A stretch of 64,000 bases of DNA. Source: Ceratodon purpureus (lineage: Eukaryota > Streptophyta > Bryopsida > Pseudoditrichales > Ditrichaceae). The DNA is taken from assembly GCA_014871385.1 (NCBI GenBank), contig CM026426.1, forward strand, positions 42,979,363 through 43,043,362, given 5' to 3'. The stretch's first letter is position 1. Every line of letters begins with the position of its first letter. The translations under genes and the position numbers were made by a program. Below are positions 21,385 through 64,000 of the stretch, in pieces. Under the pieces are notes generated by a model. That model was not told the origin of the DNA and did not search any database. It worked only from the letters and a program-made list of their open reading frames with translations.

Positions 21385-21468
21385 CCGCTCGCGCCCCCCC
21401 TTCGCAGGCGCTCGCGCCCCCATCGTAAACCCCTTGCTCGCGCCCCCCTGCCATCGCAGGCGCTCGCG

Positions 21469-21499
<31 letters not shown>

Positions 21500-22932: not shown

Positions 22933-23599
22933 ATGGACTTCTTCTTCTGTAATGACGATATTGAGAGATGCGTCAAGGGCACAAAGAGGAAGTGGGTTCT
23001 CTCAATGATGACCATTCCACAAATATGGCGAGTTAAGTTGGGGACCAACTTAACTTGCAAAGAGATCCTCACTTTGGAAAACGTAGGCTTTAGACTGCCC
23101 CAGCGGAAGGAGATGGCACCTACAAGACTTTTTCAGGACCACCAGTTGCCTGTGGACCTAGCAAGCTACACGAATCTTGCATTTCTGGCGTTCAGAGAAG
23201 TTGATTTGGCAAAACAAGAGCGCTCTGTCAACAAAGCACGCCAATAACTGTGCCTCAGCCCTATCATTGAAGGGCACAGTGCGCAAATTGTGCATGCTTC
23301 CAGCCCCTGCCTTAGCATGCATTGTCTCATTGGAATCCGGCACGCCCTCAAATGTACAACAATATTTCTTGACCCTTTCGTAGCTGCCGGCATGCAGTTG
23401 TCCTAACTTCAAAGAGATGGCTATTGAAGCTATTGGAAAACGGGGTCAGTGGGCGAACTGTAAATATTTGTACTTTTTGTTTACTGTAGCATGTGGTTTG
23501 GACTCAGATTCAGATACGTTCATTCATGCTGCAAGTTTTAGCTTTAACGAAGTGAAGCGAGTTTTAGAAGGTGGTTTACTAAAGTACCTTGAGTCCTAG
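22933..23599 (+). pseudogene. MULE transposase C-terminal remnant, plus strand
   Basis: The translation FCNDDIERCVKG, then VKLGTNLTCKEILTLE and GFRLPQRKE, matches the minus-strand MULE at 53.5 kb (FCPDDISHCVKG, VKIGTNLTRQEVLDLE, GFQLEQRGE). Further on, 23417-23599 encodes GKRGQWANCKYLYFLF and DTFIHAASFSFNEVKRVL, matching GKAKQWKYCKHVYYIL and DSFMHAPSYS of the same protein around its SWIM finger; the His of the SWIM CxH is Tyr here. The frames are broken between the two parts, and the DDE region is absent. It is a decayed fragment of the same family as the 53-57.7 kb element. Confidence 0.7.
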
Positions 23600-39984: not shown

Positions 39985-40165
<181 letters not shown>

Positions 40166-42886: not shown

Positions 42887-44964
42887 CTGAAGCAATTTAT
42901 CCAAGTCCTGCTTCACAATACTGGCATAATTTGGATTCATGCAATATCTGGCCTAATGGGATGGTGGGATATCCTTCTCCAACTCAATCCTGTGCTGTGC
43001 AATTGAGGGTGGGATACCCTTCAAGTCCTTATAGGTCCAGGCAAATACATCCTTGAATTCCCTGAACAGAGCCTTTGCTTCAATTGCCTGTTCTGGACTA
43101 ATGGCTGCATTAATCTTCAAATACTGGAGCTCCTCCTCTGTTCCAAGGTTAATTTTTCTCAACTGCTCCGACTCTGGTAAGCTCAAGGATGCAATCTTCA
43201 ATTTCTTCACTTTCTCCCGAGCTGGTGTCCTAACCACCTCAATGTCGCCCTCCTCAAAGTCGTAGAAATGATCTAGGTAGGCTCGCTCTGATCCCCCCTC
43301 TTGTCCCTGGTCCTGGTCCTGGTTCTTTGCTTGGTCCTTGATTTGGTCCTGGTCCTTCTTCTTCTCCATTCGGGGCAGAGTGACTGTTCCAACGGCCAGA
43401 AAGTCCTGCTCACTAGCTAACCACAAGGCTTCCTCCTCATCTGTCAGTCCTTCAGTAAAATTATAATAGACTAGGACTTCAGGTAACTTAGGCTAGGGCC
43501 CCTTCCTCTGACTGACTGAAATCGTTTTTACAGTACTATTACCTCTGATAGTGACGAGGTTATTACCCCAGTCATGATTTACCTTAGCATCAATTAACCA
43601 AAGTCTGCCTAGCAACATACTATAGGCTTCATTAACTTCTTTGTTTTTAATAACAGTCAAGGTGATAAGGTAAGGCATACCATGGATGTGAATTTTCACA
43701 TTACGAATCATTCCCACCGGGTCAACGACTATCTTGTCCGCCATCCTTAGTCTGAAAGGAGCAGGTTGTGGGTCCTTTAGGCCCAGTCTTTTACGCTCCT
43801 CCTCAGTTATCAGGTTCACACCTGATCCTCCATCCAGTAGGACATTCTCCAAAGTCCCATTGCCTACCTGCACATTTAACACCAGCAGTTCCCTGTCAAC
43901 ATCAATGGCCAGACTGCATATTAAATCAGTCTTACCTGGTCGACTGGTTGTTGGCTTCTTGCTTGGTGTTGGCTCTCGCAAAGTGGGGTGGTCTGCTACC
44001 ATTTTTGGGAATACATGGGCCTTCACATATTCTGTCAAATTAGGGGCCATCTTCAGCAGCTGTCCTAGTGAGACGGTGATGGGACTGTCCAGTATTTTTC
44101 TTCCAACTACAATTGCATAATGCTGCTCCTGGTTGTTCTCTGTACTAGTCTCCCCTTCTGTGCCCAATTCCTGCTATATGGTCTTGGAGTTGTAGTCTAA
44201 TGTGTCCGAGTCTGGAAATCATGCCCACTCATTGTCTAGTACTTCGCCATCTCCTTCGTTCTCTGTTGTTTTTAAAATCTCCTTGAGTCTCTCGGCTTCT
44301 ACCTTCTCCTGCCACTCCTGAAGCTGAGTTTCCTTCAAGGTTTCCAGCATAGACTTCCTGATTTTTTCTTCCTCCTGCCAGTCTTCTTTTGTTTTGGCCT
44401 TTCTTGGTTCAGGTTCCCTTGATTCATCCTGGATAGGTAATAGTCCTGCCTTCAAACGCTGGGCTCTGGTCATGGTAGCTACCCCCACTGACTCTTCAGG
44501 TTCCTCTATTAGCTCAATCTCCACCTTGCTTACATGGTGATCCTGTTTCTTGTTGGTCTTCTCCTGGTCAGCCAAAAATTGATCCCATTGTGCCTTCTTG
44601 GGGCAGTTCCAGCTTTTGTGGTCTGCTCCTCCACACAAGAAACAACACGCTCGTTGATCACCATAACTCCTCTGTTGATTACTGCCTGCCCTTGGGTTCG
44701 GTGGTCTCTGGTACCCTTGGCTGTAACTGTAAATTCCTGCAGGTTTAGAAGCAGAAACTTCATTGACACAAACAGGTTCTTCTCCTTCCTTCTTCGCACC
44801 TGACCCACTCTGATTGGCTGGGTTGTACCAACAGTTGGCATCGTTATGTTCCAGCTTCTTACAGATACCACAGGCTTTCCTTGGAGCCTCCTGGCCTGGT
44901 TCCTTCCTGGTCACTGTGGCTGCGTTACTGCTGGTCTCCACTTTCTTCACCTCGATCTTAGTAT
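42887..44964 (-). pseudogene. gypsy gag 3' part, protease and RT start
   Basis: From the nested insertion leftwards: two perfect CX2CX4HX4C zinc knuckles (CGICKKLEHNDANC and CFLCGGADHKSWNC, about 44865 and 44625), an acidic Lys/Glu helix, and a protease with the active-site motif LLDGGSGVNLI (near 43830). A DQ-rich linker follows (about 43290-43380), then the segment EFKDVFAWTYKDLKGI typical before gypsy RT, and the start of RT. In-frame stops are TGA 44219-44221, TAG 44174-44176, TAG 43493-43495 and TAG 42953-42955; translation continues in the same frame over all of them. At 42953 the family pattern PSHQAR has the stop at the Gln position. Confidence 0.85.
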
Positions 44965-47426
44965 CACTATGGCAGAGATGCGTCAAAGATAACGCCGTTT
45001 AACGCGGTTTTTAACGCGGTTTAACGTGGATTTTTTGACTAGTCCAAAGTGACGCGCCCTATCACATAGGTCTTTTGATTATGACGCGGCGCGTCATGGC
45101 ACGTTAAAACGGTTTAACGTGCGCACGTCATCTCTGTTAAACCACGTTACTCAGAATAGCCAGAAGTTACCTGAGGTCAGTAAATCGAGGGAGTTACTTT
45201 TTGCCACATGAGCATTTCCCGCTGTTTTTCATTCCACGTTGGAGTTTACGTGGATATTTCCCTCCTTTGTCCATTCCACGTCAGATATTGCGTGGCAGTT
45301 GACGTGGCACTTGATTTCAATGGTTGAGATGGTGACACGTGTCATGATCATGGATTGGAGAATATTCGCGGATGCGTTTATGGTGTCGGGTTTTGTATGT
45401 TTACAGAAACGGTTTATGTTGACGGTTTTTGTGTGTTTACATAAACGTAGTGTGACGTGTTTTGTATGTTTACGTAAACGTAGTGTGGACGTTCATTATA
45501 ACGTGTTTGGACGCTGATAAACGCATGTGTCACGTATTTGAATGCGTTTTGAAAAACGCATTTAGACGGAAGTTGACGTTCGCAGCGTCAACTCTTTGTA
45601 ACATTAAAGTGGATTTTGGGTGTTCACTGAAACGCAATTTAATGTTTATCCGGACGCATAGCTCATGATCATTATGACACATACATATAGTATTGAACGT
45701 AAGCAATAACGTTCTGTAACACAAGAGAACGTCATTCACAACGCAAATGAAGCGTCAATTAAAACACAATTAAACACGCTGTAACTTTTTTGCTACAATG
45801 TTCTGTCATTCAAATACAAAATACATAAAGTCTACCTCTACATTGCGATAGCATACAGCTTTCTACCAAAATGAGCTCGTCCACTTCTTGGAGGTGCGAT
45901 TGGCATGTAGAGGACGCAAACGGTGCGTACATCCCAAGAGGCTCACGCTAGATTCTTCTTAATCTACACAGGCCACATGATCAAGCCAACGGTGAGGTCA
46001 CAGCAACAAATCAGCCAAAAAATCCCATCTAAAGGTTTAGTATCAAGAAGCTCTTACCCGTTTAAAGGTTTTTACCGGCACTATTGCATTCTGTCCCAAC
46101 AATTTCTCCAAACCCCCAACTTCTTCCTGTATACACAATTGCGTCATCATTAGGATAGAGGAAAGTAATGGCCTCATGAAAGTAATATTCAACTTCTACA
46201 CTTGCACACACACACACACACACATTCCTAGCTCCACACTCACACACACACACACATTCCTAGCTCCACACTCACACACACACACATACTCCTAGATTCA
46301 TACTCACACACACTCCTTGCTCCATACTCATACACACACACACACTCCTAGCTCCAGCTGAAACACCCAGATAGAGAGAAAAAGAGTCAATCCTCAACCC
46401 AAAACCCCCTCAAAAACCTAGCCGCCAAACCCTAGCCATCAAACCCTAGCCGCAAAACCCTAGCCGCCAACCCTAGCTGCCTTTATTTTTTGTAATACAT
46501 TTGAACGCACTTTATGTTACAAGAAACGCACTTCCCATTACAAGAAACGCACTTTCTGACCTAAGAAACGCGTGCGTCACTGTTGACAGCCCCCTAGACT
46601 CCCAAATAAAATATTGCAGGTCAAATCTTACATTCCACGTCACCAAATTCCTCCACGCACACGTTCCACGTCTGCGCAAGCATTCCACGTCAGATATGTT
46701 CATACGTTTTTTGCCACACATCTTAACGCACTTTTTGTCACAAGAAACGCGCACGTCAATATTGACAGCCCCCCCAGGCTCTCAAACATTGCTTGACCGG
46801 TCAAACCCTAAACCTTCCACGTCAGCCTATCACCCTACAACGCATTCCACGTCAGCACAGTCATTCCACATCAGACTTCTCGGTACGTTTTTTTTAACAC
46901 ACTTGAACGTGGCGCATGTTACCTATAACGCCTCAATGTTATAAGAAACGCGCTGCTCTGGATACTACTATGGTCAACCATAGTCAAAACTACCTTCCAC
47001 GTCAGCCATTGACTCTTCAAGCATTCCACGTCAGCGCACTCATTCCACGTCAGTCAATGTGTTACGTTTTTTTTAACACATTTTAACGTAGCACATGTTA
47101 AAATAAACGTCCTCCTTGTCATAAGAAACGTGCTGACGTGGAGACTTACTATATTTAGTCATATCTAAAGTTCCTTGAGGTAAAAAAGTAGGTGAAAAAA
47201 TTACTGTCCAACATGAACGTGTCCGTTTAATTTAACGTGATGCCGTTATTTTGAACGTATAAATTTTATTCGCGTTTCACCCATATCCTCTTTGACGCAA
47301 TGACGTTATTGGTGACTTTTTCACGTTAAAACGCTTGACGCGCGCCACGTTTAATTGGATATTTTTTCCACACTAATTCAGGATAGTGTGGATTTACGTC
47401 ATTTTTGACGCATCTCTGCCATAGTG
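44965..47426. mobile_element. non-autonomous CACTA element inserted in gypsy gag
   Basis: Both ends carry a perfect 23-bp terminal inverted repeat (44965-44987 and 47404-47426) that starts CACTATGGCAGAGATGC. It is flanked by the 3-bp duplication tat (44962-44964 and 47427-47429). CACTA-type ends and a 3-bp duplication define the superfamily. Removing the element and one tat rejoins the gag frame exactly. No transposase is encoded in its 2462 bp. Instead it is filled with short motifs: aacgcggttt/aacgtgg near the left end, attccacgtcag repeated about ten times between 45230 and 47060, and gtttacgtaaacg near 45400-45490. Such subterminal repeats are known as transposase-binding sites in En/Spm. 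It would need a TNP2 source such as the gene at 0.8-6.1 kb, but I see no end of that element to compare. Confidence 0.92.
46203..46350. repeat. CA-rich minisatellite inside the CACTA element
   Basis: Four to five units of cacacacacacattcctagc followed by tccacact, 35-45 bp each. Downstream (46405-46480) aaaccctagcc is repeated about five times, reminiscent of a degenerate plant telomere or telo-box array. Confidence 0.75.
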
Positions 47427-47429
47427 TAT

Positions 47430-49794
47430 GTTTACCACTAGAGTCAGTGCAGTTCTCCCCGCATCTCAAGGCTGCATCCACTAACTCTGTCAAACTCCTG
47501 ACTGGTGCCACACTGGTAGTAATCTTGATATACTCTAGCACTCCTGCTTGAAAATTAGTGATTCTGAACCCTTCTCCTGGATCAGATTGTAGACATTTAA
47601 TTAGTGTCATGAACCGATCATAGTAGTCCTGTACCTTCTCTTTGTCCCCCTGTTTGAAGGACTTCAATTCCCTGTATACTGCCTCATCAGTAGTCTGGTC
47701 TCTGTACCTCCTTCTGAAAGCAGCTTTAACATCCTCCCATGAGCAGTAGACATGGTTCTCCAGGAAATTCTCATACCATGCACCAACCTTGTCCAGCAAA
47801 GTGGTACCCATCAGGTTGATTATCACCTGCTCATCGGTTTCTCCATTGTGCCAGAGGGTCCTTTCGAACTGCCGTTTGTAAGCATCTGGATTTGTCTCCT
47901 CCTTGTACTTGGAGTAGGTCAGCGGCTTCCTCTATGCCACAAGAACTGGTCCTGTCACTGGTGGTACTCTGGGTCTAGGAGTTGGTGGGTAGGCTGGTGG
48001 ACCATGCCTCACTGGATAACTGCTATCCACTGTATCCCCTGGTACTCCTATTCCTGCAGGTGGCCTAGTATCATACGGCATCCCCCTCATTATCTCCGCT
48101 GGCCTTCTGTATCTTGTTCCTGTATCAAGAACTCCTGCTCCGGCTTCTGCTCCTCCACTAGGCCAGTATGCACTTCTGTTGACTTCTAGTCTGTACTCAT
48201 CACCTGTGAGGTGATCCACATAGGTAGAATATACCCCTCCTCCTTTTGTTGGGCTCACTCAAGTCCTCCAGGTTGGAAAATGGTCTGTCCCTGGTCTTCC
48301 CGGCATAGCAGATGTGGTGTATGGTGCTCCCATCAATTCAGCTTCCCTCAGTTGACCTGGTCTGTCCCCCTGGACCACTGAATGGTCATATGCTGCCCAC
48401 GGATGCGCCCTGGTTTGGCTTGGAGTTTTTGGCTCTCTTCCCTCAGTATCTCCTACCATTTGTAAAGGGTCGCCTGCCAGGTAGCTTCTTTCATCTCTTC
48501 CTCCTTCTTCAAGTCCTCTAATCTCTGTGCCTCTTGTAATAAACGCAGAGCCTCCTGCCTTAGCAAGTCCTGCTGCATCGCTTCCTTCCTCTCAGCTGCC
48601 TGCTTCATTTCCTCCCTCCTTTGAGCCTCCTGCCAGGTTCTAAGAGCTTCCTGTCTCTGATTCTCCTGGTCCTCCTCTTCAAGTCTCTTTGTTTGTTGCC
48701 ATAGCTTCATGGCTTCCTTCAATTTAATCTCCTCCTGATTCTTTTCTTCCCAAGCCTCCATTGTCTCTCAGAACCTGGCTGCCTGGCCTAGCTCCTCCAT
48801 CTGCCTCCTATACAGGTCCTCTGTTGCCTGCTGGTTTCTTTGCTCTCTCTCTGCTTGTCTTCTAGCCTACTATCGAGCCTTTAACTCCTCCAGCTGCCTT
48901 TTGTCCTCCTCATCTTCCTTTAGCTCCATTCTCTGGAACTGCTCTTGTGCAAAATGTACCACTGGTCTCCTGGGATTCACCTGTGCAGGCTTACCCGTCT
49001 TGTACATTTCTGACAGTGCTGCTGCTCCTGTCTAGACTCTGTCTCCGGTGTGAACTTCTTCCAACTTTTTCTTCAGCGTTTCCAATGTCTCCACCAAATC
49101 ACCTGGTGTTTTCTCCCCTGGTTTCGGTGTGTCTGGTCTGCTGCCTCTTTTCTTTTCCTCCTCCTAGTAATGGTCATAGGCTGATGCCATTCTGGTCTGA
49201 GTGTTCCACCAGTGCTTTGTGTCTCCTTCACCAGGCCTTGGGAATTCCCTCATGCGGGTCCTGGGTGATAGTGGATGTCCCTCATACTTCCGAATTTCTT
49301 CCTCATCCTCCTGCCAATTCTTGAAGCTTGGGCCAGGTTCTCCTCTTGCTGACCCTGTCCTCCTGCTTACTCCGAGTAATGTATCCTGGCTCGAATTCTC
49401 TCCTACCAGGTCCATATCAATCAGGTCCCTGGTTCTCCCTTTAGCTATGTTTTCTTCCGAGCTGAATTGTCCTCCCATAGGTTTTCCTACTTCTGCTGCT
49501 GCTCTTTGCTCCCTAAGTTCGTACCTCGCCAACCATTCTGCTGCTTGTCTCCTGGCTATCTCCTCCTTGTCCCACCCTGGGTATTTTCTATCCATTGCAG
49601 TACAGTTTGCTGCTCTTCCCTTGGTACTCTCTGGTCAGGTGCTCTTCTGGTTTGGCTGGTGCTTCTAGTAACTGAGTCTGCTCCTTCAAAACTCCTGAGT
49701 AGCTGTTGTCGGCTACTGTCCTCAGCCCTCCTCTGGTTTGTCGAATGCTAGTCCTCCTCTTCCCTAGTTCCTGTCCAATCCATCTCTTTGCCAC
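47430..49794 (-). pseudogene. gypsy gag 5' part
   Basis: From 49794 leftwards: an N-terminal region, then a long Gln/Glu/Lys/Arg coiled coil (about 48950-48460; REEMKQAAERKEAMQQ), a Gly/Pro-rich linker (48460-47935), and the Retrotrans_gag domain (47826-47450; RQFERTLWHNGETDE, GAWYENFLENHVYCSWEDVK, FRRRYRDQTTDE, LKSFKQGDKEKVQDYYDRFM). In-frame stops: TAG 49164-49166, 49032-49034, 48867-48869, 48870-48872 and 47932-47934; TGA 48768-48770 and 48259-48261. Probable frameshifts lie near 49600 and 48465. Gag would form the virus-like particle in the cytoplasm. CAG or CGA in place of each stop would give a residue that fits the context. Confidence 0.8.
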
Positions 49795-51334: not shown

Positions 51335-52405
51335 GAAAGACATCAAATTCTTCACGAAAGCCAAGAAGGATTTTGAGCAGAAAGAAGAACATCTCGACAA
51401 CTTCAACTACTCATTGCAGCCTTAGAAGATGCCAGATTTACAAACCAAGATATTTATATTCTCTACATTGACTTCAAAAATGCATTCATCTCCATTGATC
51501 ATGCAAGACTTTTAGCCATAATGAAAGATCTTGGATACCCAATCGATGCCACAAACCTCATAGGAAACATATATTCGCAATCTATTTATAATATTCTTAG
51601 AACCCCTTTTTGGATGGTTAGAACAAGGTGATAATGGATATACCTTTGGTACATCCAAAGTAAAAATTTCATATATAGCATATGCTCATGATTTAGCAAC
51701 AATTGCTAATAAAATAGCCTCATTACAAACACAATTAAATAAATTAGACAAATTTTGCAAATGGGCGGGGATGGACCTTGGAGTTTCCAAATGCGCAGTG
51801 ACCGGATGCCCCAATAAATTCAAAATGAACCCGATAGCATTCAAAGCACAGATTCAAGCCACCAATATAAATTACAGAAACCAACCATTACTTGTTCTAG
51901 GAAAACACGATCCATACACATATCTACGAATAAATCTCGCACCATCGCTTAAATGGAAAATACGAATTTAACACCACTACAGCTTAAGTTGTTGAACAAT
52001 GCCAAGCCCTAGTGGCCTGCCCAGCCACTATAAAACAAAAAATCAATATGGCCAATACATTCATACGTGCTGGAATTGCATACAGCTTTTACGCAGTACC
52101 ATACTCTCTGCCGGCAATCAGAAAACTTGCCAAAACGATCATAGCACTCCATAAAACAATATGCGGATTTCCAAAATGCACATCCAACATCGATATACAA
52201 CTCCCACATGATCTATTTGGAATGGAAGCCTTTTCATTAAAAAATGCCTACTAACGTTGTATCGAAAAACAATTACAAAATGCACTTAATGATAAAGGTA
52301 GACTCGGCAAAATATACTATGGTTTGATACAATTTATACTTGCAAAATAGGAAGGCTCCATAGAAATAACCCGCATTAAATACCAAGATAGCAAAGCAAT
52401 CTTGT
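51335..52405 (+). pseudogene. LINE (non-LTR) reverse transcriptase remnant
   Basis: The first part (to about 51590) reads SRQLQLLIAALEDARFTNQD and IYILYIDFKNAFISIDHARL, the fingers/palm start with the first catalytic Asp region. After a jump to another frame, LEQGDNGYTFGTSKVKISYI is followed by AYAHDLATIANK, where the catalytic box YADD is AHD (Asp to His). KFCKWAGMDLGVSKCAVTGC and the thumb region (ACPATIKQKI, AGIAYSFYAVPYSLPAI) follow. The middle of the palm is missing, and several stops including TGA near 51371 and TAA at 52252 break the frame. It cannot be active. The gypsy LTR adjoins its upstream end. Confidence 0.8.
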
Positions 52406-52680
52406 GAGTAGCGAGCAGCGTGCATCGAGCAGGAAATCTAAAATTGGACTAAAATTTTGAAAAAAAATTGACTTTTTTCAAAATTTGCGTTTTTTTTTTT
52501 TTGGTTTTTTTTTTGCGGGCAGTAAAAAATGATTATATTTAGTAAAGTACCTATTTCCGTGGATTCCATGTATAACCACAAATTATACACATAATTACAA
52601 AAACAAAAGTTTTATTCTTTAAAAACAAGAAAATATTGATTTACGGTGAAAATTACTTAATGATTTCCAGCCTCGTTAGG
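52406..52680. other. spacer, T-rich
   Basis: T and A runs (around 52490-52515), with no gene. Confidence 0.3.
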
Positions 52681-52746
52681 GGGTATCTTGGATCCGAGGG
52701 ACTCCACATTTGCATTTGGTAGGTGTGTCTCGGATCCGAGATACCC
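52681..52746. repeat. hairpin with two GGATCCGAG cores
   Basis: gggtatcttggatccgag (52681-52698) pairs with ctcggatccgagataccc (52728-52745) across a loop of about 29 bases. Both arms contain the GGATCC core found in the introns of the ParB-methyltransferase gene 7-9 kb away. Confidence 0.75.
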
Positions 52747-52957
52747 TTTGACGATGCGGAAAATTACAAATTTTTTTACCGAAAAAAAAAAAAAAACAAA
52801 AAAAAAACAAAAAAAAAAATTTTTAAAATATGTATAGGGATGATTATTGCCTCTTTAGAACTATGCATGTAAATCATCCGTGCAAACTAAATAACTAAAG
52901 TATAAGATAGTAGTAGAATCTTTATTCTTCGTAGTTCAAATCAAATACAAATCTATT
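52747..52957. other. spacer, A-rich
   Basis: A-rich runs with interspersed cytosines (52780-52820); no gene. Confidence 0.3.
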
Positions 52958-54146
52958 TCAAATCAAGGGACTGTTGGGATATTGTGAACATAGATGTTCA
53001 CTTGTGAAGGGTAAATGCATGCTACACTGCGTCCATACGTTTGAGGACGTGCATAACTTCATTTTAGCTATAGCTAGGAGCATGCATGAAGGAGTCCTCC
53101 TTAGGATCCATCTTGCACATGTATCGAAGAATATAGTATACATGTTTGCAATATTTCCATTGCTTTGCCTTCCCAAGAGTCTCCGAAATCATCTTCACAA
53201 AATATAGGCAAGTGCATTCGGGGAAGCTTGCAATGGTGATGCGGTACATCTTGTTCCCTCCTGTGTTTAGAGTTACCACGCATCCATAACCAGGATAAGG
53301 AATAGTGGTTACTCCTGTAACACCGCAATAGTCCATGAAAGCGGCACTTTGCCACTTGTTTCTGTGATCTACGGTGGGTACGTCAGGGTTCCTTCGAATG
53401 GAATGATTATTGCGGAGCGTCGGATGCGCATCTCGGTTTGCTGGTTCCTTGAAGTGGGACCTGGGAAGTGGCCACTTTGAAGCTCATTGGAATTGATGCC
53501 TTGGGGACAATTCACCTCGCTGCTCCAATTGAAATCCAGCCTCCTCAAGATCTAGAACTTCTTGACGAGTGAGATTAGTTCCAATTTTCACAGGCTACAC
53601 CATAGGGATGCTCAGCCAATCCATAACCCAAGTCTTGGGCCCCCCCTTCACGCAATGGCTGATATCATCGGGGCAGAACCAAAACTCTGCAGGAACAATA
53701 TGTTTGGTGTGATAGTCTTCCTTCCTCCCAGAATATGTAGGCGCAGGTGTGCCTTTTGCTCCCCTAGAAATCATTGCATCGCAATTCTTCCTCGTCTAGG
53801 CTTGAAGGGCTTGACATTTTCGTGCTGACCGATTCGAAAGGCAAGCAATGTGCCACGTGTTAGGATCACAGTCTGTTTCCTGTACAGACGTGGTATGTTG
53901 GACACCGCACGTTGGATCCGAAAGTGCTTCCTCAATCCTCGCTCTTCTTGACCTGGTCCCCATGGCAGGTATTGAATAATTCACCTTATCTGAGCGATGT
54001 GAGTCGTGAGCTGATCCTTGGGGGAGATCAAGCTTCCACTTCAATGAGCCAAAGATCTCGGTGCCCTCTAGTCCTTTCTCTTTCGTTAGCTCATCGTCCG
54101 CTCCAGGATAGGCCTTCATTGCTTCAGCAATCATGACAGGGTCCAA
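52958..54146 (-). pseudogene. MULE C-terminal exon with SWIM zinc finger
   Basis: From 54146 leftwards: DPVMIAEAMKAYPGADDELT, then FCPDDISHCVKGGPKTWVMD, VKIGTNLTRQEVLDLEEAGF, and a SWIM-type zinc finger (ECTCLYF ... QWKYCKHVYYIL, pattern CxC...CxH), which in MULEs binds DNA. Interruptions are TAG 53796-53798, TAG 53595-53597, TGA 53484-53486 and TAA 53064-53066. At the 53595 stop the related copy at 22.9 kb has Trp nearby, so TGG to TAG is possible as well as CAG to TAG. A frameshift lies near 54150 at the border with the middle exon. Confidence 0.75.
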
Positions 54147-54400
54147 GCTTCATTGTGCTTGACGAAGTCGGAGCTTTGCTTTATCCGGTCCTTTGCCTCC
54201 TCGCCCCCCCCCCCCCCCCCCCCCCCCCCCTTCAGATACTTCCTGTACTGCATGATTTGCATGAAGGCGCGCATCATATCGTCCACTGTGGCGTCGTATA
54301 GGCATTTCCCAGTGTTACCAGATTGTTGTAGCCACTTGTTGTGTATTGTCTCCGCTAGGTTGCAAGAAGGCATGTCTGCTCGTTCATCAAGCGATAGATT
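54131..54400 (-). pseudogene. MULE middle exon with poly-glycine insertion
   Basis: It starts at 54400 after the acceptor ctccaacag and reads NLSLDERADMPSCNLAETIH, then ATVDDMMRAFMQIMQYRKYL. A run of 27 cytosines (54204-54230) encodes nine glycines. The frame ends at a TGA at 54131, but the C-terminal part continues in another frame, so a small indel occurred around 54150. Confidence 0.7.
54204..54230. repeat. poly-C tract, 27 bases
   Basis: A mononucleotide run within the MULE exon; its length keeps the frame, giving poly-Gly. It may be hypermutable and hard to sequence, so its exact length is uncertain. Confidence 0.9.
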
Positions 54401-54489
54401 CTGTTGGAGAAAAAGAGAACTGATTCAGTGAATGGAAGAATTTGATACAGGACTTGCATAGGGGCCAAGGTTTAGGGTTAGTTACTTAC

Positions 54490-55620
54490 CAGCTGCATCG
54501 CTCCACCCCATTGCCTGTAGTGGTAGTGCCAGAAGACCATCCAGTCGTTGAGAGCTTGTAAAGCAGCGTCGGAGGTGACACACCCTCCAGATTGCCACCA
54601 TCCTTGGATGACGTTGTACATGTCCTCCACCTCCTCCTAGGTCTTAGTGTCCTTCCACTGCTTGCACAGGGATCTCATTTGCTCTTGATACTCCGGCTTG
54701 ATGTGGGCTATGGTCACCCGCTCAAGGCACTTGGTCCAGTAAAAAAGAGAAGTTCGTTCTCGACCTTCCATTTTGTCATTCACGTTTCCGTCGCCGTACA
54801 CCTTCCGCACAGCATGCCAGTTTGCGCTTGCACTGTCCGCCATGAATCCTTTGAAGTTTGGCTTCGGATGTCCATTGTCCTCCATCATACTCTTCAGGTT
54901 TTCCCAGAACAAGGTCTGGGCAGTGGCGTCCTCGGACTGCATATCACATAGAGCTATGGTCATGACTCTGCAATATCTACTATCATATACATGACATGCC
55001 ATGGTGCTCCAGTCCTTCACTCGTCTGATATGGTCGAACATGATCCACGTATCTTGAAGGTCTCCCCCGGGCTGCATGCGCTTCACTAGGTCCGTACCAC
55101 TGCCTGGCATATCCACTGACATTTTGAAGATGAACACCTTCCCTTTCGTCTGGCCTGGAAAGCTGTTATCGTGGATGAATTTGAAGGCGTTGTACTCCTT
55201 CAATCGCATGATGTTATCGACTAGACCATTGTCCTGGCGTAGGAATTTCTTTGTACCTGCAACAAAGTGCCGAATGTTTGTATCCGACATGGTCTCAAAC
55301 TTGTCCATCACCTGAGCCATAGGTGAACCACAAAGGTGATTCTGCCCTGGAGTCGCTTGAATGAGGTAGTCTGCCAGAAATATCTTGCTCGCTCCCAAGA
55401 CGATGACAGAGTTCTTTGCATTTGGAGTACGGAGGACTTGCTCGCCTATGCACTCGTTCATGAGATCCAAGGTCTCGAGGCAGGTACCATCCGAAACTGG
55501 ATGTTTATGATGCCCGAGATGGATGGCAGCCCGAGTCATGTCTGGATCTTTGCTGGTGACATGGAAGATCCTCGCAGCACATAATTCTAACAGATAGGGG
55601 GAGTATGGCAGATTTTGCAA
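54490..55620 (-). pseudogene. MULE transposase core domain
   Basis: The frame runs from about 55620 to a TAG at 54637-54639 and, in the same frame, on to a donor at 54489. It holds FDHIRRVKDWSTMACHVYDS, VMTIALCDMQSEDATAQTLF and FKGFMADSASANWHAVRKVY, laid out as in the MULE transposase RNase H-like fold; Asp in CDMQSED and in MADSA are likely catalytic. The block RTSLFYWTKCLER is the later core. The exon after the stop (EEVEDMYNVIQGWWQSGG) is Trp-rich and fits the known helical insertion region of such proteins. An N-terminal Met is not certain, because the frame is probably an internal exon. Confidence 0.75.
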
Positions 55621-56590
55621 ACAAGAGTTGAGTTAGAGGGATGCTTCTCTCTTACTAAAATCTGACTTGGGGTAAGCCCAGCCCACTCAGTGGAATTCAC
55701 CTTCCCTGGATTCCTATCTATATAATCACAGTTCAAGTTCGGCACTGAAGATGGCCCGTACAGTTGGACTTGCGAAACTTTAGGCCAAAGTCATTCTTAT
55801 CATTCATGGTCATAGTCTTACACCACGCGTGCCCGTCGTATTGCTTCCCCATACCATCCAACTCTCCACTGAATGTCGTCGGGATGTTCTCAGGGAGAGG
55901 AGGCAACTCAAAGATCTTGTCACCATCATAGGTTGCGGGAAGGTACTTCACTTCTACATGCTCGAGGCTAGCAAAATCAATAGACAAGATATCTGACCTG
56001 CAGCCTTTCCTTCCAGCAGTCTTCTTGATGACCTCCAAGATGCTACGCGGCTTCCGTGAAGTTGGATGAACAGGGGGACGCCTAGCGGAAACTGATGGCA
56101 AACGTAGCTGAGTCCTACCCGACAGCAAGCGAGTGAAACCCACAGAGCTCCATCATTGGAATGGATTTGCACAAGTATCTGCAAGCCGGATATCAGGGAC
56201 AACATCATCGTCCGAATCGCTAAGGCGGTGGACGTCAGGAGCACTGCCTTCTATCTTGACCTTCACCAAAGTAGGAACCCGAACAGTGGAAGTAGAACTG
56301 GGCGGAGTCAACATGACGGTAGACTCTGACATCTGTGAATCCGTGAGGCCATAGACATTATATGTACCACTATGTAACGTCCAAACGAAACCCTCTTCCT
56401 CTCTGGTTTTCACTTGAAGAATAGTCTCACTCAACACTCCATTGTCATCAAAAATCTCCTTCTCAACGTACATGGACCCCATTCAAAAATGAAACCTAAG
56501 ACTCAAAAGCTGCTCCGACACCTTCACTGATCCATCTTCACCTAATGGCGCTGTAAACGGGGCCACATGGCCATGGGCACGAATAGATGC
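55621..56590 (-). pseudogene. MULE N-terminal half, frame-broken
   Basis: ORF 56482-56153 (MGSMYVEKEIFDDNGVLSET) and ORF 56143-55733 (KPRSILEVIKKTAGRKGCRS, PLPENIPTTFSGELDGMGKQ, GHAWCKTMTMNDKNDFGLKF, RKSNCTGHLQC) overlap in order but lie in different frames. The second carries a Cys/His-rich block that resembles the zinc-binding N-terminal domain of MULE-type proteins. After 55733 the frame remains readable for about 50 residues towards the core exon. Confidence 0.6.
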
Positions 56591-57244
56591 CATTCTAAGC
56601 GCCTGGTAGAAGATTGGAGATATAGAATCATGCATTGAGAGAGAACTAAAGGAAGAGTGGGAATAAGAAGTGAGGTGATGATGATTAATCCGGAACTCAT
56701 TTATGTTGGTATCACTTCATGTGCCATCTGTTAGGTAAGAGCGACATTGATGATGTCAAATCAGATTAGTAAAGTTGTTAAGCATTGGCGTTAAGCAAGA
56801 AGACGGCTGAGAGAAATATTGTTGGCTAGATTAGCATGAAATTCAAATCAATTACTCTTTATTCAAATACAAACACAAGTAGCTGGCGCAGTGCAGAGAA
56901 AATATGTCTTTTGGATCAGAGGGACACTTTTACGCCGTCATTTGCAAATTGTAAAAGCGGAAAAAGATAGACATGACTGACATGGAGCTTACAAACTAAT
57001 CTCCTCAACAACTCGACACAGTATTAAAAAAAGAATATGCAACTGCGTAACTGATAAGGGAGAAACGAATGACGGCCACCTACACCAAATGCAGGATTGG
57101 TAGCTTTAATATTATTAAGAAATAGGAATGCCACTTTCCAGTGATACATGTCCATGCTTATAGAATTAAATAAGTGGAAGTGATATAACAAGTAATTCTA
57201 AGGTCATGGTCCTAGCAGAGTGTCAATACTCCTCCTAATTCAGA
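56591..57244. other. non-coding interval within the MULE region
   Basis: No coding segment is supported; it may be an intron or 5' leader of the minus-strand element. Confidence 0.3.
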
Positions 57245-57713
57245 CCAATAATCAAACGTGGCGGCCTCGCTTGGACGTATCATTTTCGCGCATATTGGCC
57301 CTACTATTCTTTTGGGATCCAGGGTCCACATCTACAATTGCCGAACATCCCTTCATCTGAAGCTTGCGTCCTTTACGACTGCGGTGTACCACGTAGACAG
57401 AGCTCTTGTGTACGTTCCCGATTGAATGATCCCAACATCAGCATAGGCATGCTTCTTCCTGGAATCAGATTCATCGACGTGAGCATCATCTAACGTCACG
57501 CGTGGTAGCCTCAACGCAAGGATGTACATGGGACTTCAAAATAGGAGAATGTAATGAAGTAGGAAGAGGATCAGGAGGAGGTGAGACGTGGCCTTCATCA
57601 CTAGCTTTCGGAATAGGCTCGAAAGGGCCTTGGAAATCGTCAATTGAAAACACTAATGGCATGGCATCCTCGTCCAAGGGGGAACTAGACCGCTTGGCTC
57701 CCTTCGCGTCCAT
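57245..57713 (-). pseudogene. basic N-terminal ORF, probably part of the MULE
   Basis: ORF 57713-57486 begins MDAKGAKRSSSPLDEDAMPL in a good start context. After a frame change near 57490 the same strand continues with DDAHVDESDSRKKHAYADVG. A further frame then gives SRKGRKLQMKGCSAIVDVDP, and the next residues are rich in Arg and Asn. No domain is recognised. Its position and strand suggest the first exon or a leader ORF of the MULE, with about 650 bp of non-coding sequence between. Confidence 0.4.
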
Positions 57714-57974
57714 GGTGAGATGTGCGAAAAGTACAACCAGAGCGTTGACGATGAGAGAAAGAACTAATTGGTATGGGTCCTTATATTACCACTGATAATT
57801 CATTCGTGGACTAAGAGGATTTGACATCCACGGAACTGTTCATCTGAACTCTGATTTTAAATATATGTCCAGAAGGGTAGAGTATAAGTACTGAAGCGTG
57901 GTCTCGAGCACGGCATTAGAGAGCGTGTAGAGTCAGTTGTTATGGTTGGGAATTTCTCTTGAGTTCTGCACACA

Positions 57975-58838
57975 TGACGGCAAAAAAGTCAAAAGATGTA
58001 GGAATAGAGATGTCAGTACCTAAGAGTAGCAAAAAGAGAGGGCAAACTTATAAGTTTCCGAGCGGTAAGCAGAAAACTGCTGCAGTAGCGAAAAAGGAAA
58101 AAAAAAAGTGGAAGGTGATAGCATAGACAGAACTCTTAGGACTCTAATGTATGAGGAAGTCTCTGAACAAGGGACACAGTCATTTTGATTAGAAAGGGTG
58201 GAGGAGGATGCACCTGAGTTTGAAACACCACGTACTGGGAAGAGTGCGGCGGGAAGGAACCAAGCAGTCTCATCCGGGCGAGCACTTGAGTACAGTGACG
58301 TGGGGTTGAAGGATTACAACCTAGGGTTTAGGGGAGGAGGAAAGAGGAAGTCCTGTGAGTGTGCCCTCATTGAGAGTGAGGAAGAGGTTTTGGTTGAGGT
58401 AAGTAGAGTGTGATCATCTTGTCCCTAATCCCATTCTCATGAGTCGCCTTGTGTATAATCATTGTCGTCTTCTTCCCCAGTATAAGGCTGCGTTGGAGGT
58501 TGCGAGTATGGATATTCTTCTTTGTAAACGCAAGTCTTTCTTCACTGCATTTGTTTGTAAGTGAGAAGTTATAGAGTCGACTGTGTTGAGTTAATGAGAG
58601 ATGGCAGAAGAAATAACTAGAGACTTGGGTGCGCTTATAACACTCGAAGGGTCAGATAGTAGTGACGAGAAGGAGAGCACTAGTCCATCTCGGTCCAATG
58701 TGGGTTCACAAGAAATGTCGGGGGGAGTGCGTAGCACGTCACGAGGGAAGGGGAAGGCGAAGCAAAAGTCAGGCGACGCATTTGCTTCAACTCAAACTGC
58801 GAGGGATCGTCCGTGATGGAGGAAGGGGGGACAGAGGA
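57975..58838 (+). pseudogene. unrecognised Lys/Ser-rich spliced pseudogene
   Basis: The ATG at 57975 starts MTAKKSKDVGIEMSVPKSSK, a basic N-terminus. At an A-run (58101-58110) the frame shifts, and the continuation VEGDSIDRTLRTLMYEEVSE passes over a TGA at 58186-58188 into EEDAPEFETPRTGKSAAGRN. A donor GAG|gtaagt (58398/58399) and acceptor ttccccag (ending 58480) join in phase to YKAALEVASMDILLCKRKSF, with a second donor after it. A later segment from 58601 (MAEEITRDLGALITLEGSDS) is Ser-rich and reads over a TGA at 58814-58816 to an AGG|gtaagt donor. I recognise no domain. The single-strand order suggests a nuclear, DNA-binding-type or disordered protein, possibly a relative of the gene downstream. 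Confidence 0.4.
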
Positions 58839-58993
58839 GGTAAGTATTGGAGAGACATTCCTATGAACTTGTGCATCGTCGTCAGAATTATTGTCTGTAT
58901 CAGTTCGTATTGAGAAATTACTATTAAGAGTGTCTGTGTGAGTGCGCGAGCAGTGGGCCCGCGGGTGAGCATTTAAGAGGGGGGGGTGCGGGG

Positions 58994-59000
58994 TATAAAA
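58994..59000 (+). promoter_or_regulatory. TATA box of the ParB-methyltransferase gene
   Basis: A TATAAAA within a G-rich context (gggtataaaaggg) lies about 450 bp upstream of the chosen start codon. Transcription would begin near 59025-59030, leaving a G/T-rich leader to 59449. Confidence 0.6.
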
Positions 59001-59544
59001 GGGTGGGGGTACTGAGAGAAGCTCTTTTCTTTTGTTTCTTGCTGGAGGAGTCTGCGGTTTTCCGAGAGGGGTTTGGAGAGTAGTGTGGTGGTGGTGGAGA
59101 AGAGGTGATTGTGAGTATGAGTGTGTAGGGACAGGTTAAGACTCGGTATGGAGGGGGGTGATTTCGATTTTACAAGGAGGGAAGGAGGTAGTGAGGTTGA
59201 GGGTTTCTCTTGAGAGCTATACTGAGGCTTGTGGGGGAGGGTTTGCGGGTTTCTATGGAGGAAGGGGGTTGTATGGTTGAGGGTTTAGTTAGAGCTTCAC
59301 TCTAGGTGTTTGGAGGAAAGTTTGCGGGTTCTTGTTGTTGAGGGGGTGTTAGGAAGTTAGTTTGTGAGGGTTGTGGAGGAGTTCAAAAGTAAGGAAAAGG
59401 AGAGAGGTTTGTTGGTCTCTTTGGAGTAGTGACGTTCTTGTCTATGACAATGGACGAGCGAGAGTCTGTGGTTTCCGAGGGTTCGCAGGTAAGAGCGGCC
59501 ATAACAAATTATGTTTAGATCGGAGAGTGGGCAGTGGAAACACA

Positions 59545-59562
59545 TGTCTTGGATCCAAGACA
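59545..59562. repeat. GGATCC-centred palindrome in intron 1
   Basis: tgtcttggatccaagaca is a perfect 18-bp palindrome inside the proposed first intron (59489-59621), the simplest member of the family seen in later introns. Confidence 0.7.
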
Positions 59563-60909
59563 CATTTTTGTTGCTCAGAAAATTGGATGATTTAGGAATT
59601 CGGGATTGTTTTCTTGCGCAGAAATTCTGGAAAAATACTCATATTGTGTGCTTCAATCTGTATGGACAAATTACACCTTACGAGCCAGTGGACATGGATG
59701 CACCTCCACGCATTGGAGAGGGTGATGTTGATCCTGGCATTCATGTAACCATGGAGAGACTGCGGCAGAAAAGGAGGGGGAGAGGTCAAGAAGCAATGAC
59801 TGAAAGCCTTGAGAAACCCGTCTATGAGCTTGATATTCCTCTGTGTCGTATGATTCCAGTGACAAAGGTTCGCGGCGCATTAGCTCCTGACATAGAGAAG
59901 CTGAAGGCTGAGTTTGCTCACGGCTACAGACATGGGTCATCTGTTTTCTATGTGTCCACCCGAAGTTATCCAATGAAGACACAGGAGGTCACTAAAGAGC
60001 AGCGAGGCTTGTGGGATCCGATTTGGAGGGAGGCTGAGAAGACATTTGAGGAGAAGTTGAAGAGAACACCTGGTTTGGAGAAGTACTCAAACAAGATGTT
60101 TTACATCTGGGATGGTAATCACCGCTACAAGGCATGGAGTAGTGTCATCAAAGATTTTCATTCCCAAGATCCGAATCCAGCGTTTCATCCTAGCCTGAAG
60201 ACACATATTATATGTGTCACAGAGGAGAACAAGCAACAACTTCTGCATGCGATGACACAGTGGAAGAAGTAAGTTCTCTTCTAGGATTGTCTTTTATGGA
60301 AAGTTTTGGTTAATGTGAAGTACTAATCATCGGATTATTCAATATCAGGAAGAACGGATTCGATCATGTGAACCAACATTGGACACACGAGCTCCAAAGA
60401 GTCATGCAGTTTGGTAGTATGCCCTTCAACCAGTTGAGAGCTCTCATCCCTGTACGTGATTTTGAGAACAGTATGATAGATTGGAACCGTGCCACCAAGA
60501 ATAAAAAGTGGTACCATCTCACGGCGGATGCATTTTGCAACTTCTTGTATGAGGTATTATTTCAAGAAACTTCCACGTCTTCTAAAAAATTGATTAAAAT
60601 TGCATTGGAGTACCCATGGAAGTACTGATTATACCTCGTTTGCAGAGAGAGATTATCAATGCACAGGAAGCAGCAATGAAGATACATGACGACTCCTTAA
60701 TAACTCATGGTGAAAAGCGACAGGGGGACAGCAACATTCTCATTGAACGTGCAAATGCAGCGATAAAGGCTTGCAAGGCGCATCTGCACACTAAGATGGA
60801 CCGCTTACTAGCCATAGCGGATCCCAAGGATGGAGAGGGATTCATCAGAGACGTAAGGAGTTTTTAGTCTTCAACTCTGATTTCCTTTAAGTTTTTTGAG
60901 TTATTTGGC

Positions 60910-60971
60910 CTCTTTTGACCCTCCCAAAGGGTCTCTCGGATCCGAGGGACCCTTTGGGAGGGTCAAAAGAG
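60910..60971. repeat. GGATCC-centred palindrome 1 of intron 4
   Basis: A 62-bp inverted repeat with no loop: the left half starts ctcttttgaccctcccaaag, and the halves differ at a single position (a G-T wobble in RNA). The centre is ctcggatccgag. Confidence 0.95.
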
Positions 60972-61001
60972 ACCCAAAATGCCTCAATATTGTCATAATT
61001 G

Positions 61002-61069
61002 AGCACTTATAGGGGGCCCTTTAAGGTCTCTCGGATCCGAGAGACCTTAAAGGGCCCCCTATAAGTGCT
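61002..61069. repeat. GGATCC-centred palindrome 2 of intron 4, perfect
   Basis: A perfect 68-bp palindrome without spacer, from agcacttatagggggccc to its complement gggccccctataagtgct, centred on ctctcggatccgagag. Its arms differ completely from those of palindrome 1 outside the core. Confidence 0.97.
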
Positions 61070-61090
61070 AATTTATCATGATAAGTTAGC

Positions 61091-61150
61091 TTTTTTAAGG
61101 GGCCCTAAAACGTCTTTCAGATTCGAGAGACGTTTTAGAGCCCCTAAAAG
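61091..61150. repeat. GGATCC-type palindrome 3 of intron 4, degenerate
   Basis: Arms ggggccctaaaacgtct and agacgttttagagcccc pair around a decayed centre ttcagattcga, where the GGATCC core is mutated. A second small hairpin follows (gtgctaaaat ... atttttt agcac, 61150-61176). Confidence 0.8.
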
Positions 61151-61177
61151 TGCTAAAATATCACCATTTTTTAGCAC

Positions 61178-61240
61178 TTCTTTAGGGGCCTGAAACGTCT
61201 CTCGGATCCGAAAGACGTTTTAGGGCCCCCTAAAAAAACT
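61178..61240. repeat. GGATCC-centred palindrome 4 of intron 4
   Basis: Arms taggggcctgaaacgtct and agacgttttagggccccct pair with a few mismatches around ctcggatccgaa. The flank aatttatcatgata is repeated after both palindrome 2 (61070) and palindrome 4 (61240), so these modules arose by duplication. Confidence 0.85.
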
Positions 61241-61613
61241 AATTTATCATGATATTTGCAACATTTTTCTAAAATATGCGGATGTTATTGGTTTCCTTAG
61301 AGTTTCATGACGTTTTGACAGAAACTTCATTGATTTTGTGTACATTGAAGCCCATTTCAGCACGTTCAGAACCAAAACATAGATGAATCCCGAGAAGCTC
61401 CAACTGTTTGCCACTGCCAAAGTGCCGGCGAAATACAAGGAGAGATGGGTGCACTGGTGGAATATGACCAAAGAATCACGTGATTTATATAACTTTCCAA
61501 AGTATCCTGCATCTACAGGACAACTTCGTCCATGGGTTGAAGTTGCAGCTTTGTGGGCAGGAGTAAGTTCATCCTATTTATCATGTATTTGTGCTTATTT
61601 ATGCTACCTAAAT

Positions 61614-61637
61614 ATGTCTTTCGGATCCGAAAGACAT
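61614..61637. repeat. GGATCC-centred palindrome in intron 5
   Basis: atgtctttcggatccgaaag followed by acat is a perfect 24-bp palindrome within the intron 61563-61766. Confidence 0.9.
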
Positions 61638-63783
61638 TTTTCAATGCATAGATTTTCCTAAAATGTCTTCACGGAAGGTCATAGTCTTGCAATCAGATGA
61701 CGAGACTTAGCTATAACGGTGAATCGATTTACATGGGCTAACAATGAACATCATATTTCCTTGCAGCTTGAAAAAGAAACTGGGATTCAATATGCCCAAA
61801 TTATTGAAGACGAGGGAATTGTTATTCCACCTGAGGCACCTGCAATGGGTATTGTGTTGATAGATAAGTTCGTTAGCACAGGAGCTCTCAAAATTTGGAA
61901 GAAGGGGTTCGTAGAATTTCTTGGAAGGTATGGTGGGTTTGTGAAGAAGCATCCTTTCAATGAGCAAAAAGACACTAAGTTGGCTGTGAACTGGATGATT
62001 GTAAGGTATTTTTATGCGAAGCTTCTGAAGAAAGGTGCCATTACAGTTGATAACATTCCCATTCGGTTCTCCAAGTGGCTTGATACCTCCAGCCCCGACT
62101 GTATCTTCAACGATTATCAGAGAAAAAATTACTCTCGGCCTCACCTCCAAGAATGTCCGTGGTATCTCGAGCTCAAAAAGAAAGAGAAAGATCAAGACTC
62201 AGAGCGCGCCTACAGAGCCAAATGTAACAAGGAGACAGAGGAGATGGAGGCGCAAGGCATCAATATGCAGAATCCAACTCGGAGGAATTCATGTCTGAGA
62301 AAGATCGAGCAAAGTCACTCACAAAGAAACAGAGCGCAGAGAACAGGGCAGCAGCGAAGGCTCAGAGCGACAAGGAGAAGGCGCTAGCCAAGCAGAAGGC
62401 AGCTGAGGAAAAGGTCAACAATGAGAGACTTACTAAGCTTGTCAAGCAGAAGGGACTAAAAGGCGTTTTGGAGGATGAGGGATTTTTCCCTTCAGGAAGT
62501 AGCATGCCCTCTCAGCGATCGCAGGGAGTCTCTATTCTGCCCAGCCAGGTCCTTAGTCAGACATACTACTCTATCAAGTCCAAGGCCCGGGAAAATTACG
62601 ATCCCAATGTTCTGCTGATCAATAAGAGTGCACAACAGATTATGGACGACCTCAGCTTCAATAATGTAAGATCTTATAACGATTGGAAAGCCATCGGTCG
62701 TTTCATTGGTTTGCACTAGCAACAAAAGCGCCGCCAGTACAAGGGTGCCACTCTGGATGCCAAAGCAGTTGACCTTATCGTATTTGACGTTCCAGAGAAT
62801 TTGCCTGTGCCCTTCTTTGATGATGAAGACATTCCAGCATGGAATGTATTGCTGATTGATACAGATCTTGATTCCACAAAGTCAGAGTCTCCCTGGATCC
62901 ATAAACACTTTGAGTGGGCCAATGAGTGGATCGCAGACGATGGAGTAGTCCTTGTGTTTTATCCTGACAGTAAGTTCATTCTCTCGGAGTTGGAAGGATG
63001 GTCGGAGTGGGCGGGATTCAAGGTGTATCACAAGTGGATCGTCATGAACGACCTCAAGACGAATAGCCCTGATTTTCCAGATATACAGACGACGGTCACT
63101 AACGCTATGCTGTTCGCGTGAAATGAAGATGCCGCTTTAGACATTCTTGCTTCTCGATTCCATTTCTATGAGCAATCTGACCTTGAGGCTAAGGACGTTG
63201 ACATGGTTAATCTGGGTTTTTTGGTTAACAAGACAAACCAGGATAACTGGACAGTAAGAGAAGTCAGTGGTGGTCGATGGCGTGGTCCAGGTGAGAAGGC
63301 AGAAGACCTTTTCATCAAGTTGCTGGACCTTCTAACTCAAGAGGAGGACATAATTATGGACCTTACCGCATCTACAGGTAAACTTAAATTTCTTCATACT
63401 TGTTAATTTCATGGTTTCCTGATTCTTCCTATACATCTTAATTCTTATTTCTATTCCTTTTCCAGGCGCCTCTATCAAGGCCGACAGATATATGCACAGG
63501 CACCTCATTGCTCTCGAGGAGGACACGGGATCTTCACGATGAGATTCTGGTTCCACTTGTTCCGGAGCCTATCGAGGACAAATCGCCAGCCCCTACTCCT
63601 CCTCCAAAGAAACGAGGACCATCCAAACACGCTGAAGAGCCTCCTTCAAAGAAAGCTCCTAGACGCTCCTGTGAGTGATTACTATATTTCAACTGTAACT
63701 GTCATTTCTCTTTTCTAGAAGTATTTTTTTTGTCTCCATTTCAAACTCATTCTAATGGATATCTCGTTGCAGATATAAAGTGA

Positions 63784-64000
63784 ACGCACTGCACCTTTGG
63801 ATCCGCAAGTCAGCACCAGCTATGCCAATTTTCAATATCATAGCAATATTTTTACCGGATAATATCCACTATCTTCATATGTCTCTTACAGTTTAGGGGA
63901 TTACAGTTTGAGTTGCATAGATCTCTAAGACAATACTTTCAATATTACCTAGCCACAACAACAATGCTACATTATATTTTGTAATACCAATACTTCTATG
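63784..64000. other. 3' flank of the ParB-methyltransferase gene
   Basis: AT-rich sequence after the proposed TGA stop at 63781-63783, probably 3' untranslated or intergenic. No polyadenylation signal is clear, and no further gene begins before the window ends. Confidence 0.3.

Follow-up and report, generated by a model that had tools for sequence, protein, structure and literature searches.

A methyltransferase-like fusion gene in a DNA transposon of the moss Ceratodon purpureus, and the repeated palindromes of its elements

We analyzed a 64,000-nucleotide stretch of the Ceratodon purpureus genome (contig CM026426.1; C6:42979363-43043362, hereafter the window) containing a gene for a fusion protein, with the motif DGNHR in its N-terminal part and a C-terminal part resembling beta-class DNA methyltransferases. 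The gene has decayed and is one copy of the second gene carried by a multicopy DNA transposon, which has terminal inverted repeats (TIRs), 9-bp target site duplications (TSDs) and a divergently oriented transposase gene. Each of the three subfamilies read also carries about twenty copies of a perfect 10–12-bp palindrome. The genome searched comprises 362,488,568 bases in 151 contigs. Window position 52388 is where the alignments to two full copies, C5 and C1, begin. These copies measure 15,359 and 15,460 bp as cut, which places the element at about 15.4 kb, and they are the two in which both ends were read. In both, the TIRs are 37 bp long and 100% identical, and the 9-bp TSDs are TTGCATGAG and ACTTGATAG. 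A further copy, C7, was likewise read on both sides; its alignment with the window starts only at position 55196. The C1 copy is nested in another, diverged element of the same group (the outer element), whose transposase and fusion genes are designated L034 and L035.

A 461-base piece of exon 2 was used as the genome query, and 40 matches were scored. Thirty-one of these, the window included, are 87–100% identical over nearly the whole query; the remainder are one 85-base fragment and eight matches at 67–73%. The 20 best-matching of the 30 other near full-length copies were fetched and, with the window, make up the 21 aligned sequences. A third subfamily, represented by L036, is 48–50% identical over exons 2–4. 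Further relatives at 38–44% occur among the matches listed, many with open frames of 550–593 amino acids. The stretch C7:10259300-10289200 (L029, L016 and L030) contains two successive copies of the element's 3' part together with its flank, apparently a tandem duplication.

The initial annotation described a spliced eukaryotic gene with seven introns on the plus strand, and this description holds. Exons were read from 59444 to 63783 (Table 1), and the boundaries of exons 1–7 agree in most of the 20 fetched copies; parts are missing in L011, L021 and L027. The acceptor of exon 2 lacks AG in 10 of the 21 aligned sequences. Nine of the fetched copies (L013, L015, L016, L018, L019, L020, L023, L025 and L028) are open: their exons 2–7 have the same lengths, are free of stops and comprise 1,018 codons. 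L022, L024 and L026 are one stop away from this state. The copy in the window has become a pseudogene and shows a frame change near 62270, an in-frame TAG at 62717, an in-frame TGA at 63119 and a second frame change in the exon at 63466-63670. A 54-nt intron considered at 62666-62719 was rejected because the region is read through as coding in the open copies. Intact relatives, as envisaged in the initial annotation, do exist, but they are copies of a multicopy transposon gene, of which the window holds a broken one. As had been proposed, the two halves belong to one protein and not to neighboring genes: both are present together in L035, at only 32–36% identity to the window's own family (the W family). 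L035 shares most intron positions by eye, including a phase-1 intron inside motif I of the methyltransferase part; its exons 4 and 5 are joined, and extra introns are seen by eye in the methyltransferase part.

Table 1. Features of the element and of the fusion gene in the window (coordinates are window positions)
Feature	Position	Strand	Evidence or remarks
Element, portion inside the window	52388..64000	+	Right part lies beyond the window; the following 10 kb reads N
5' end of element with TIR (GCAATCTTGTGAG, then GAGCAGC-like repeats)	52388..52433	+	Start of alignments to C5 and C1 copies
Two palindrome sites near 5' end (CTTGGATCCGAG at 52687, CTCGGATCCGAG at 52729)	52687..52740	.	Read in window
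Decayed open reading frame (ORF); SWIM-like CxC...CxH motif in intact homologue	53025..54415	-	tblastn, 92–95% to 460-aa ORF of C1 element, two pieces
Decayed transposase gene	54481..56167	-	tblastn, 86–94% to 746-aa ORF of C1 element, three pieces; no Pfam match
TATA-like sequence upstream of gene	58992..59001	+	Read directly
Whole gene, eight exons and seven introns	59444-63783	+	Exon boundaries read, copies aligned
Exon 1, putative (start codon putative)	59444..59488	+	GTAAG or GTAAA donor in 20/21 aligned sequences; TTAAG in L011
Palindrome site, intron 1 (CTTGGATCCAAG)	59548..59559	.	C1 element has CTCGGATCCGAG in intron 1 (by eye)
Exon 2, with DGNHRYKAW at 60111-60137	59622..60268	+	647 nt in 19/21; 646 in L009; insertion in L021
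Exon 3	60349..60553	+	AG acceptor and GT donor in 21/21 aligned sequences
Exon 4	60646..60852	+	AG acceptor in 20/21 (not L009); GT donor in 21/21
Palindrome sites at 60935, 61030 and 61201, intron 4, within long imperfect inverted repeats, period about 85	60935..61212	.	
Exon 5	61383..61562	+	Most copies retain its splice sites; L011 and L027 lack the exon, and L024 has an altered donor; fused with exon 4 in L035 (by eye)
Palindrome site TTCGGATCCGAA, intron 5	61620..61631	.	
Exon 6, ending within methyltransferase motif I, broken in window	61767..63377	+	1611 nt here; 1612 nt and open in 9/20 fetched copies
Methyltransferase-like domain; motif IV DVPE at 62786-62797, motif I DLTASTGAS from 63359 across last long intron	62786..63530	+	PF01555 match, PDB profile
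Exon 7, remainder of motif I and basic tail	63466..63670	+	205 nt here, 204 in open copies
Exon 8, final codons and stop	63773..63783	+	Read directly, by eye

In the W family, purifying selection acts on the fusion protein, whose N-terminus is putative. Over the 36 pairs of the nine open copies, the ratio of nonsynonymous to synonymous polymorphism (pN/pS) is 0.153. By part, it is 0.20 for the DGNHR part, 0.07 and 0.13 for the middle, 0.15 for the methyltransferase part and 0.13 for the tail.

On the strand opposite to its fusion gene, the C1 element has ORFs of 746 amino acids, the transposase, and of 460 amino acids. Homologues of the 746-residue ORF in two other elements are 49 and 52% identical, and the L034 transposase is 47% identical to that of the C1 element. 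Pfam, at E values up to 1, gave no match for either ORF of the C1 element, and a PDB search with a profile of the transposase and two homologues gave none. For the C-terminus of the 460-residue ORF, which carries a CxC...CxH motif, SWIM was the top Pfam match, below cut-off (E of 0.016 for L034 and 0.39 for the C1 element). The MULE transposase domain was not found by Pfam. Matches of transposase fragments to Smr (0.25) and Antitox_RHH (0.075) in the Pfam searches were taken as chance. Elsewhere in the window, at 22930-23569, two fragments resemble the SWIM-type ORF at 35 and 55% identity and are probably the remains of a second, diverged element.

The association of the two genes was examined across the genome, where 94 transposase matches (from 2428 first-look candidates) and 150 matches to the methyltransferase part (from 1815 candidates) were scored; all scored matches passed. 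Among the matches listed, 71 of the 94 transposases have a divergent methyltransferase-part match within 20 kb, at distances of 3.3–15.3 kb. In 200 shifted controls, for which some chromosome lengths were rounded, such pairs averaged 0.42 and never exceeded 3. By order in the list, paired transposases account for 21 of the first 25 rows (89–100% identity), 15 of rows 26–54 (78–97%, mixed) and 35 of the last 40 (67–69%). One arrangement other than divergent was seen among the gene pairs. Because 71 of 94 form divergent pairs against a shifted mean of 0.42, we conclude that transposase and fusion gene travel together across subfamilies. The initial annotation had suggested a domesticated host protein. 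A spliced gene under purifying selection would fit that suggestion, but the TIRs, the TSDs and the pairing with a transposase in 71 of the 94 listed cases contradict it for the copies examined, and we regard a host gene as hardly credible; the gene belongs to a transposon and is paired with a transposase instead.

The C-terminal part appears, from profile comparisons, to descend from bacterial-type beta-class N6/N4 DNA methyltransferases, an ancestry that had been proposed for it, with the signal mainly at motif I. PF01555 (N6_N4_Mtase) matched the window piece, the open copy L020 and L035 with E values of 6.2e-5, 1.2e-5 and 3.4e-4, all below cut-off; the L020 match scored 25.9 bits and spans positions 16–218 of the 221 in the profile. 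A PDB profile built from three copies, two of one family and the diverged L035, matched three chains, all of them DNA adenine methyltransferases. Two HpyAVI/DpnA chains (2.7e-6 and 3e-6) matched over the C-terminal stretch, and CcrM (0.0058) over the whole domain, with DVPE aligned under DPPY. Motif IV precedes motif I, which is the beta-class order. In tblastn searches of plasmids, single matches had E values of 0.1–9; methyltransferases filled 17 of the 20 listed rows in one case (three unannotated) and 9 of 10 in another (one hypothetical). NCBIfam placed the unrelated ApbC (0.0072) above CcrM (0.082) for L035. Prokaryotic or viral relatives were not confirmed in the viral contigs or genome contigs searched, and tblastn matches in phages had E values of 3 or worse, the listed ones not being annotated as methyltransferases. 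The basic tail noted earlier is present in the window copy but is not general, since the L035 tail is acidic.

Both diagnostic motifs are altered. Motif IV reads DVPE in 15 of the 20 copies (five not readable) and DFPD in L035. Motif I reads DLTTST in 16 of the 20, DLTTSI and DLTASI in one each (two not readable), and DLTAST in the window copy (63359-63377). In L035 it is DLSPGTG, in which GxG is kept and DPF is not. The copies read, L035 included, match neither the catalytic motif [DNS]PP[YFW] nor the S-adenosylmethionine (SAM) loop DPFxGxG. As read from the sequences, the change of both motifs is established in the W family and seen in one diverged copy, L035. Loss of the aromatic residue and of the first proline of DPPY argues against catalysis, as in METTL14. 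The initial annotation had raised the idea of a binder or reader, and the recurrence of the altered motifs in other copies makes such a non-enzymatic role plausible. Conversely, the fusion protein might retain activity, as an N6-adenine or N4-cytosine methyltransferase, and modify the palindromes of its own element, which have GGATCC or GTTAAC centers. The homology itself, the constraint on the methyltransferase part (pN/pS 0.15), the GTG retained in motif I of L035 and the resemblance of the palindrome centers to restriction-methylation targets speak for such an enzyme. With DVPE or DFPD in place of DPPY, and TTSTG in motif I of the W family, we consider it improbable.

In the N-terminal part, DGNHR is identical in four aligned sequences, down to 36% identity, the value between L035 and L020 for this part (the methyltransferase parts of these two are 32% identical), and L036 keeps it. 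The ParB-like domain that the initial annotation saw here was not borne out. Pfam, NCBIfam and PDB-profile searches of the fusion protein gave no match to ParBc (PF02195). When aligned with 80 Spo0J domains by hhalign, it scored 1.65, below the ten best of 30 shuffled controls (4.74–7.76). An AlphaFold single-sequence model had a pLDDT of 31.8 and was unusable, and tblastn of the DGNHR part against plasmids gave a single match (E of 4). DUF1015 matched weakly around DGNHR (0.033 and 0.089); it was not seen in L035, nor, at E values up to 1, in a longer piece of an open copy. Beyond the DGNHR motif, these tests gave ParB homology no support. Since the profile tests fail and the model is unusable, we keep the label "DGxHR-motif domain" and drop "ParB".

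The palindromes differ between subfamilies. The C1 element contains 18 copies of CTCGGATCCGAG and the C5 element 19 (20 of its inner 10-mer), whereas the outer element has 3 + 18 = 21 copies of GCCGTTAACGGC. In L036, 4,161 bases contain 22 copies of TCGGATCCGA, most of them within an array in an intron; L036 shares the inner 10-mer with the W family and lacks that family's 12-mer. After dinucleotide shuffling (200 times), no palindromic 12-mer occurred more than twice (C1 element) or once (outer element). The W core and the GCCGTTAACGGC core are mutually exclusive, never occurring in the same element among those read, and neither was found in window positions 1-52387, in two C5 flanks or in two C7 flanks. 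Across the genome, the extended site GTNTCTCGGATCCGAGANAC was counted 407 times and the reversed pattern 0 times. Proximity to the genes was assessed for 50 listed sites of the 407, which fall in five clusters; gene matches were listed for C1 (both genes) and C2 (methyltransferase part). Of these sites, 33 have a listed gene match no more than 12 kb away, compared with a shifted mean of 0.7, and 33 was not reached in 1000 shifts. The clusters at C1:19263394-19267364 and C1:23493991-23497659, with 10 and 7 palindromes and no listed gene match, are possibly non-autonomous copies or another subfamily.

Within the C1 element, sites occur close to the 5' end and in the stretch separating the genes, as well as in introns 1 and 4 and the 3' part. 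The window copy has 3 exact 12-mers over a length in which the C1 element has 10; the gene regions of the nine open copies hold 5–10 palindromes and those of the other eleven 0–9. At 59548-59559 in the window, both CpGs have changed, to TpG and CpA, with the palindrome intact, a pattern expected from decay of methyl-cytosine. Sites at both ends and around both genes would suit a reading in which the transposase or host factors bind the palindromes, while the fusion protein is otherwise employed, for example in the recruitment of repair or chromatin proteins. In other plant elements, transposon proteins are known to bind subterminal repeats. Many of the 18 sites in the C1 element are in introns and in an array in the 3' part, not at the ends, and we think this reading unlikely. 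Another possibility is that gene conversion has spread the palindromes as mere hairpin or cruciform repeats that have no protein partner. Many sites do lie within longer inverted repeats, some are in tandem arrays, and the self-complementary arms, extending as much as 25 bp past the 10-bp core, differ by site. Yet the core stays constant while the arms change, two element types have different cores and the L036 sites show little symmetry outside the core, which leaves the hairpin explanation quite doubtful.

The best explanation overall, in which we have moderate confidence, is that the element encodes a pseudo-methyltransferase, a putative DNA-binding protein for the element's own palindromes. 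The fusion protein would most likely not methylate but act in DNA binding, and its targets would most likely be the approximately twenty palindromes of the element encoding it, through which that DNA would be marked. The marking might counter silencing, by analogy with VANC, or help to assemble the element for transposition. More tentatively, we suggest a diversified group of eukaryotic transposons with its own site-recognition system, in which a pseudo-methyltransferase fusion and some twenty cognate palindromes per element may change together between subfamilies, a self-marking like that of ParB–parS or of VANC and its targets.

Several observations weigh against this explanation. The PF01555 scores of the window, L020 and L035 all fall below the curated cut-off of 26.7 bits, and a piece truncated before motif I gives no PF01555 match; the signal is thus mainly at the C-terminal end. 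The L036 gene was read in its N-terminal part only, so that motif loss is known from two subfamilies, and SAM binding may survive in L035 because GTG is retained in its motif I. The first 62 codons have a pN/pS of 0.98, that is, they are without constraint; the N-terminus is uncertain, and the exon-2 acceptor is not AG in 7 of the nine open copies. Among the matches listed, only 71 of the 150 methyltransferase-part matches have a listed transposase partner, and 17 of the 50 listed palindrome sites lie in two clusters without a listed gene match. No repeated palindrome occurs in the 3.2 kb read beside a diverged third transposase (L027). Co-variation of protein and site is seen against one diverged element only, because the inner 10-mer is common to the W family and L036. 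The arms beyond the core differ between sites and are often still self-complementary, as hairpin repeats might be; the palindromes could be such repeats, or else be recognized by the transposase or by a host factor.

If the explanation is right, a plant DNA transposon has taken up a DNA methyltransferase fold of bacterial type and retained it in many copies, probably as a reader, and the palindromes are its direct and testable target. If protein and palindrome co-vary, the subfamilies would offer a natural series of protein–site pairs for the study of self-recognition by transposons and their escape from silencing.

The window contains other mobile sequences. ORFs of a CACTA-type transposon lie at 1181-6073 (Transposase_21, 1.7e-72; DUF4218; DUF4216, below cut-off), and an ORF with DUF7869, a domain of unknown function (4.3e-38), at 10476-11288. 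C-rich arrays sharing GCTCGCGCCCCCC, at 17186-17617 and 21395-21689, flank hAT transposase ORFs at 17756-21082. A retrotransposon gag (6.4e-13) with weak aspartyl protease matches occupies 43496-47931 on the minus strand, and 39987-40164 is a perfect TG microsatellite of 89 units. No tRNA or Rfam match was found within the window.

In the open-licence literature we found no description of an element of this kind, and the passages available from PMC9273592, PMC6446971 and PMC3671162 likewise contain none; the words ParB and methylase are absent from the main text of PMC6446971. The element has counterparts, in part, in several known systems. With beta-class N6/N4 methyltransferases (PF01555; HpyAVI/DpnA and CcrM), the moss protein shares the motif order and the C-terminal pattern EKS..L...D...TG....A....R...E, together with a weak whole-domain alignment to CcrM. 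It differs in having DVPE or DFPD for DPPY and DLTTST or DLSPGT for DPFxGS/T, and in being eukaryotic, spliced and fused to other domains. Mutator-like elements have in common with the moss element a 9-bp TSD, TIRs, a SWIM-like motif and a second gene on the other strand (PMC6446971), but the moss transposase has neither a MULE match nor another convincing match in Pfam. Retrotransposons of dinoflagellates and charophytes are mobile elements that also carry methyltransferase-domain genes, of the DNMT kind, in many copies; those encode C5-cytosine methyltransferases capable of CG methylation (PMC5890265). Bacterial ParB–parS offers an analogy in its short repeated palindromes, for which the moss protein, with its DGxHR-type motif, may be the reader in the moss; in the profile tests this protein shows no ParB homology. 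The VANC proteins of Arabidopsis VANDAL transposons are likewise encoded by an extra gene beside the transposase, and the target regions, putative ones in the moss, are in both cases repeated, diverging and situated in noncoding parts of the element. VANC binds noncoding, fast-diverging tandem repeats of its own VANDAL element, on which it causes silent marks to be lost (PMC10398659). The moss sites, in contrast, are perfect palindromes; the likeness is one of analogy, and a role in anti-silencing is putative.

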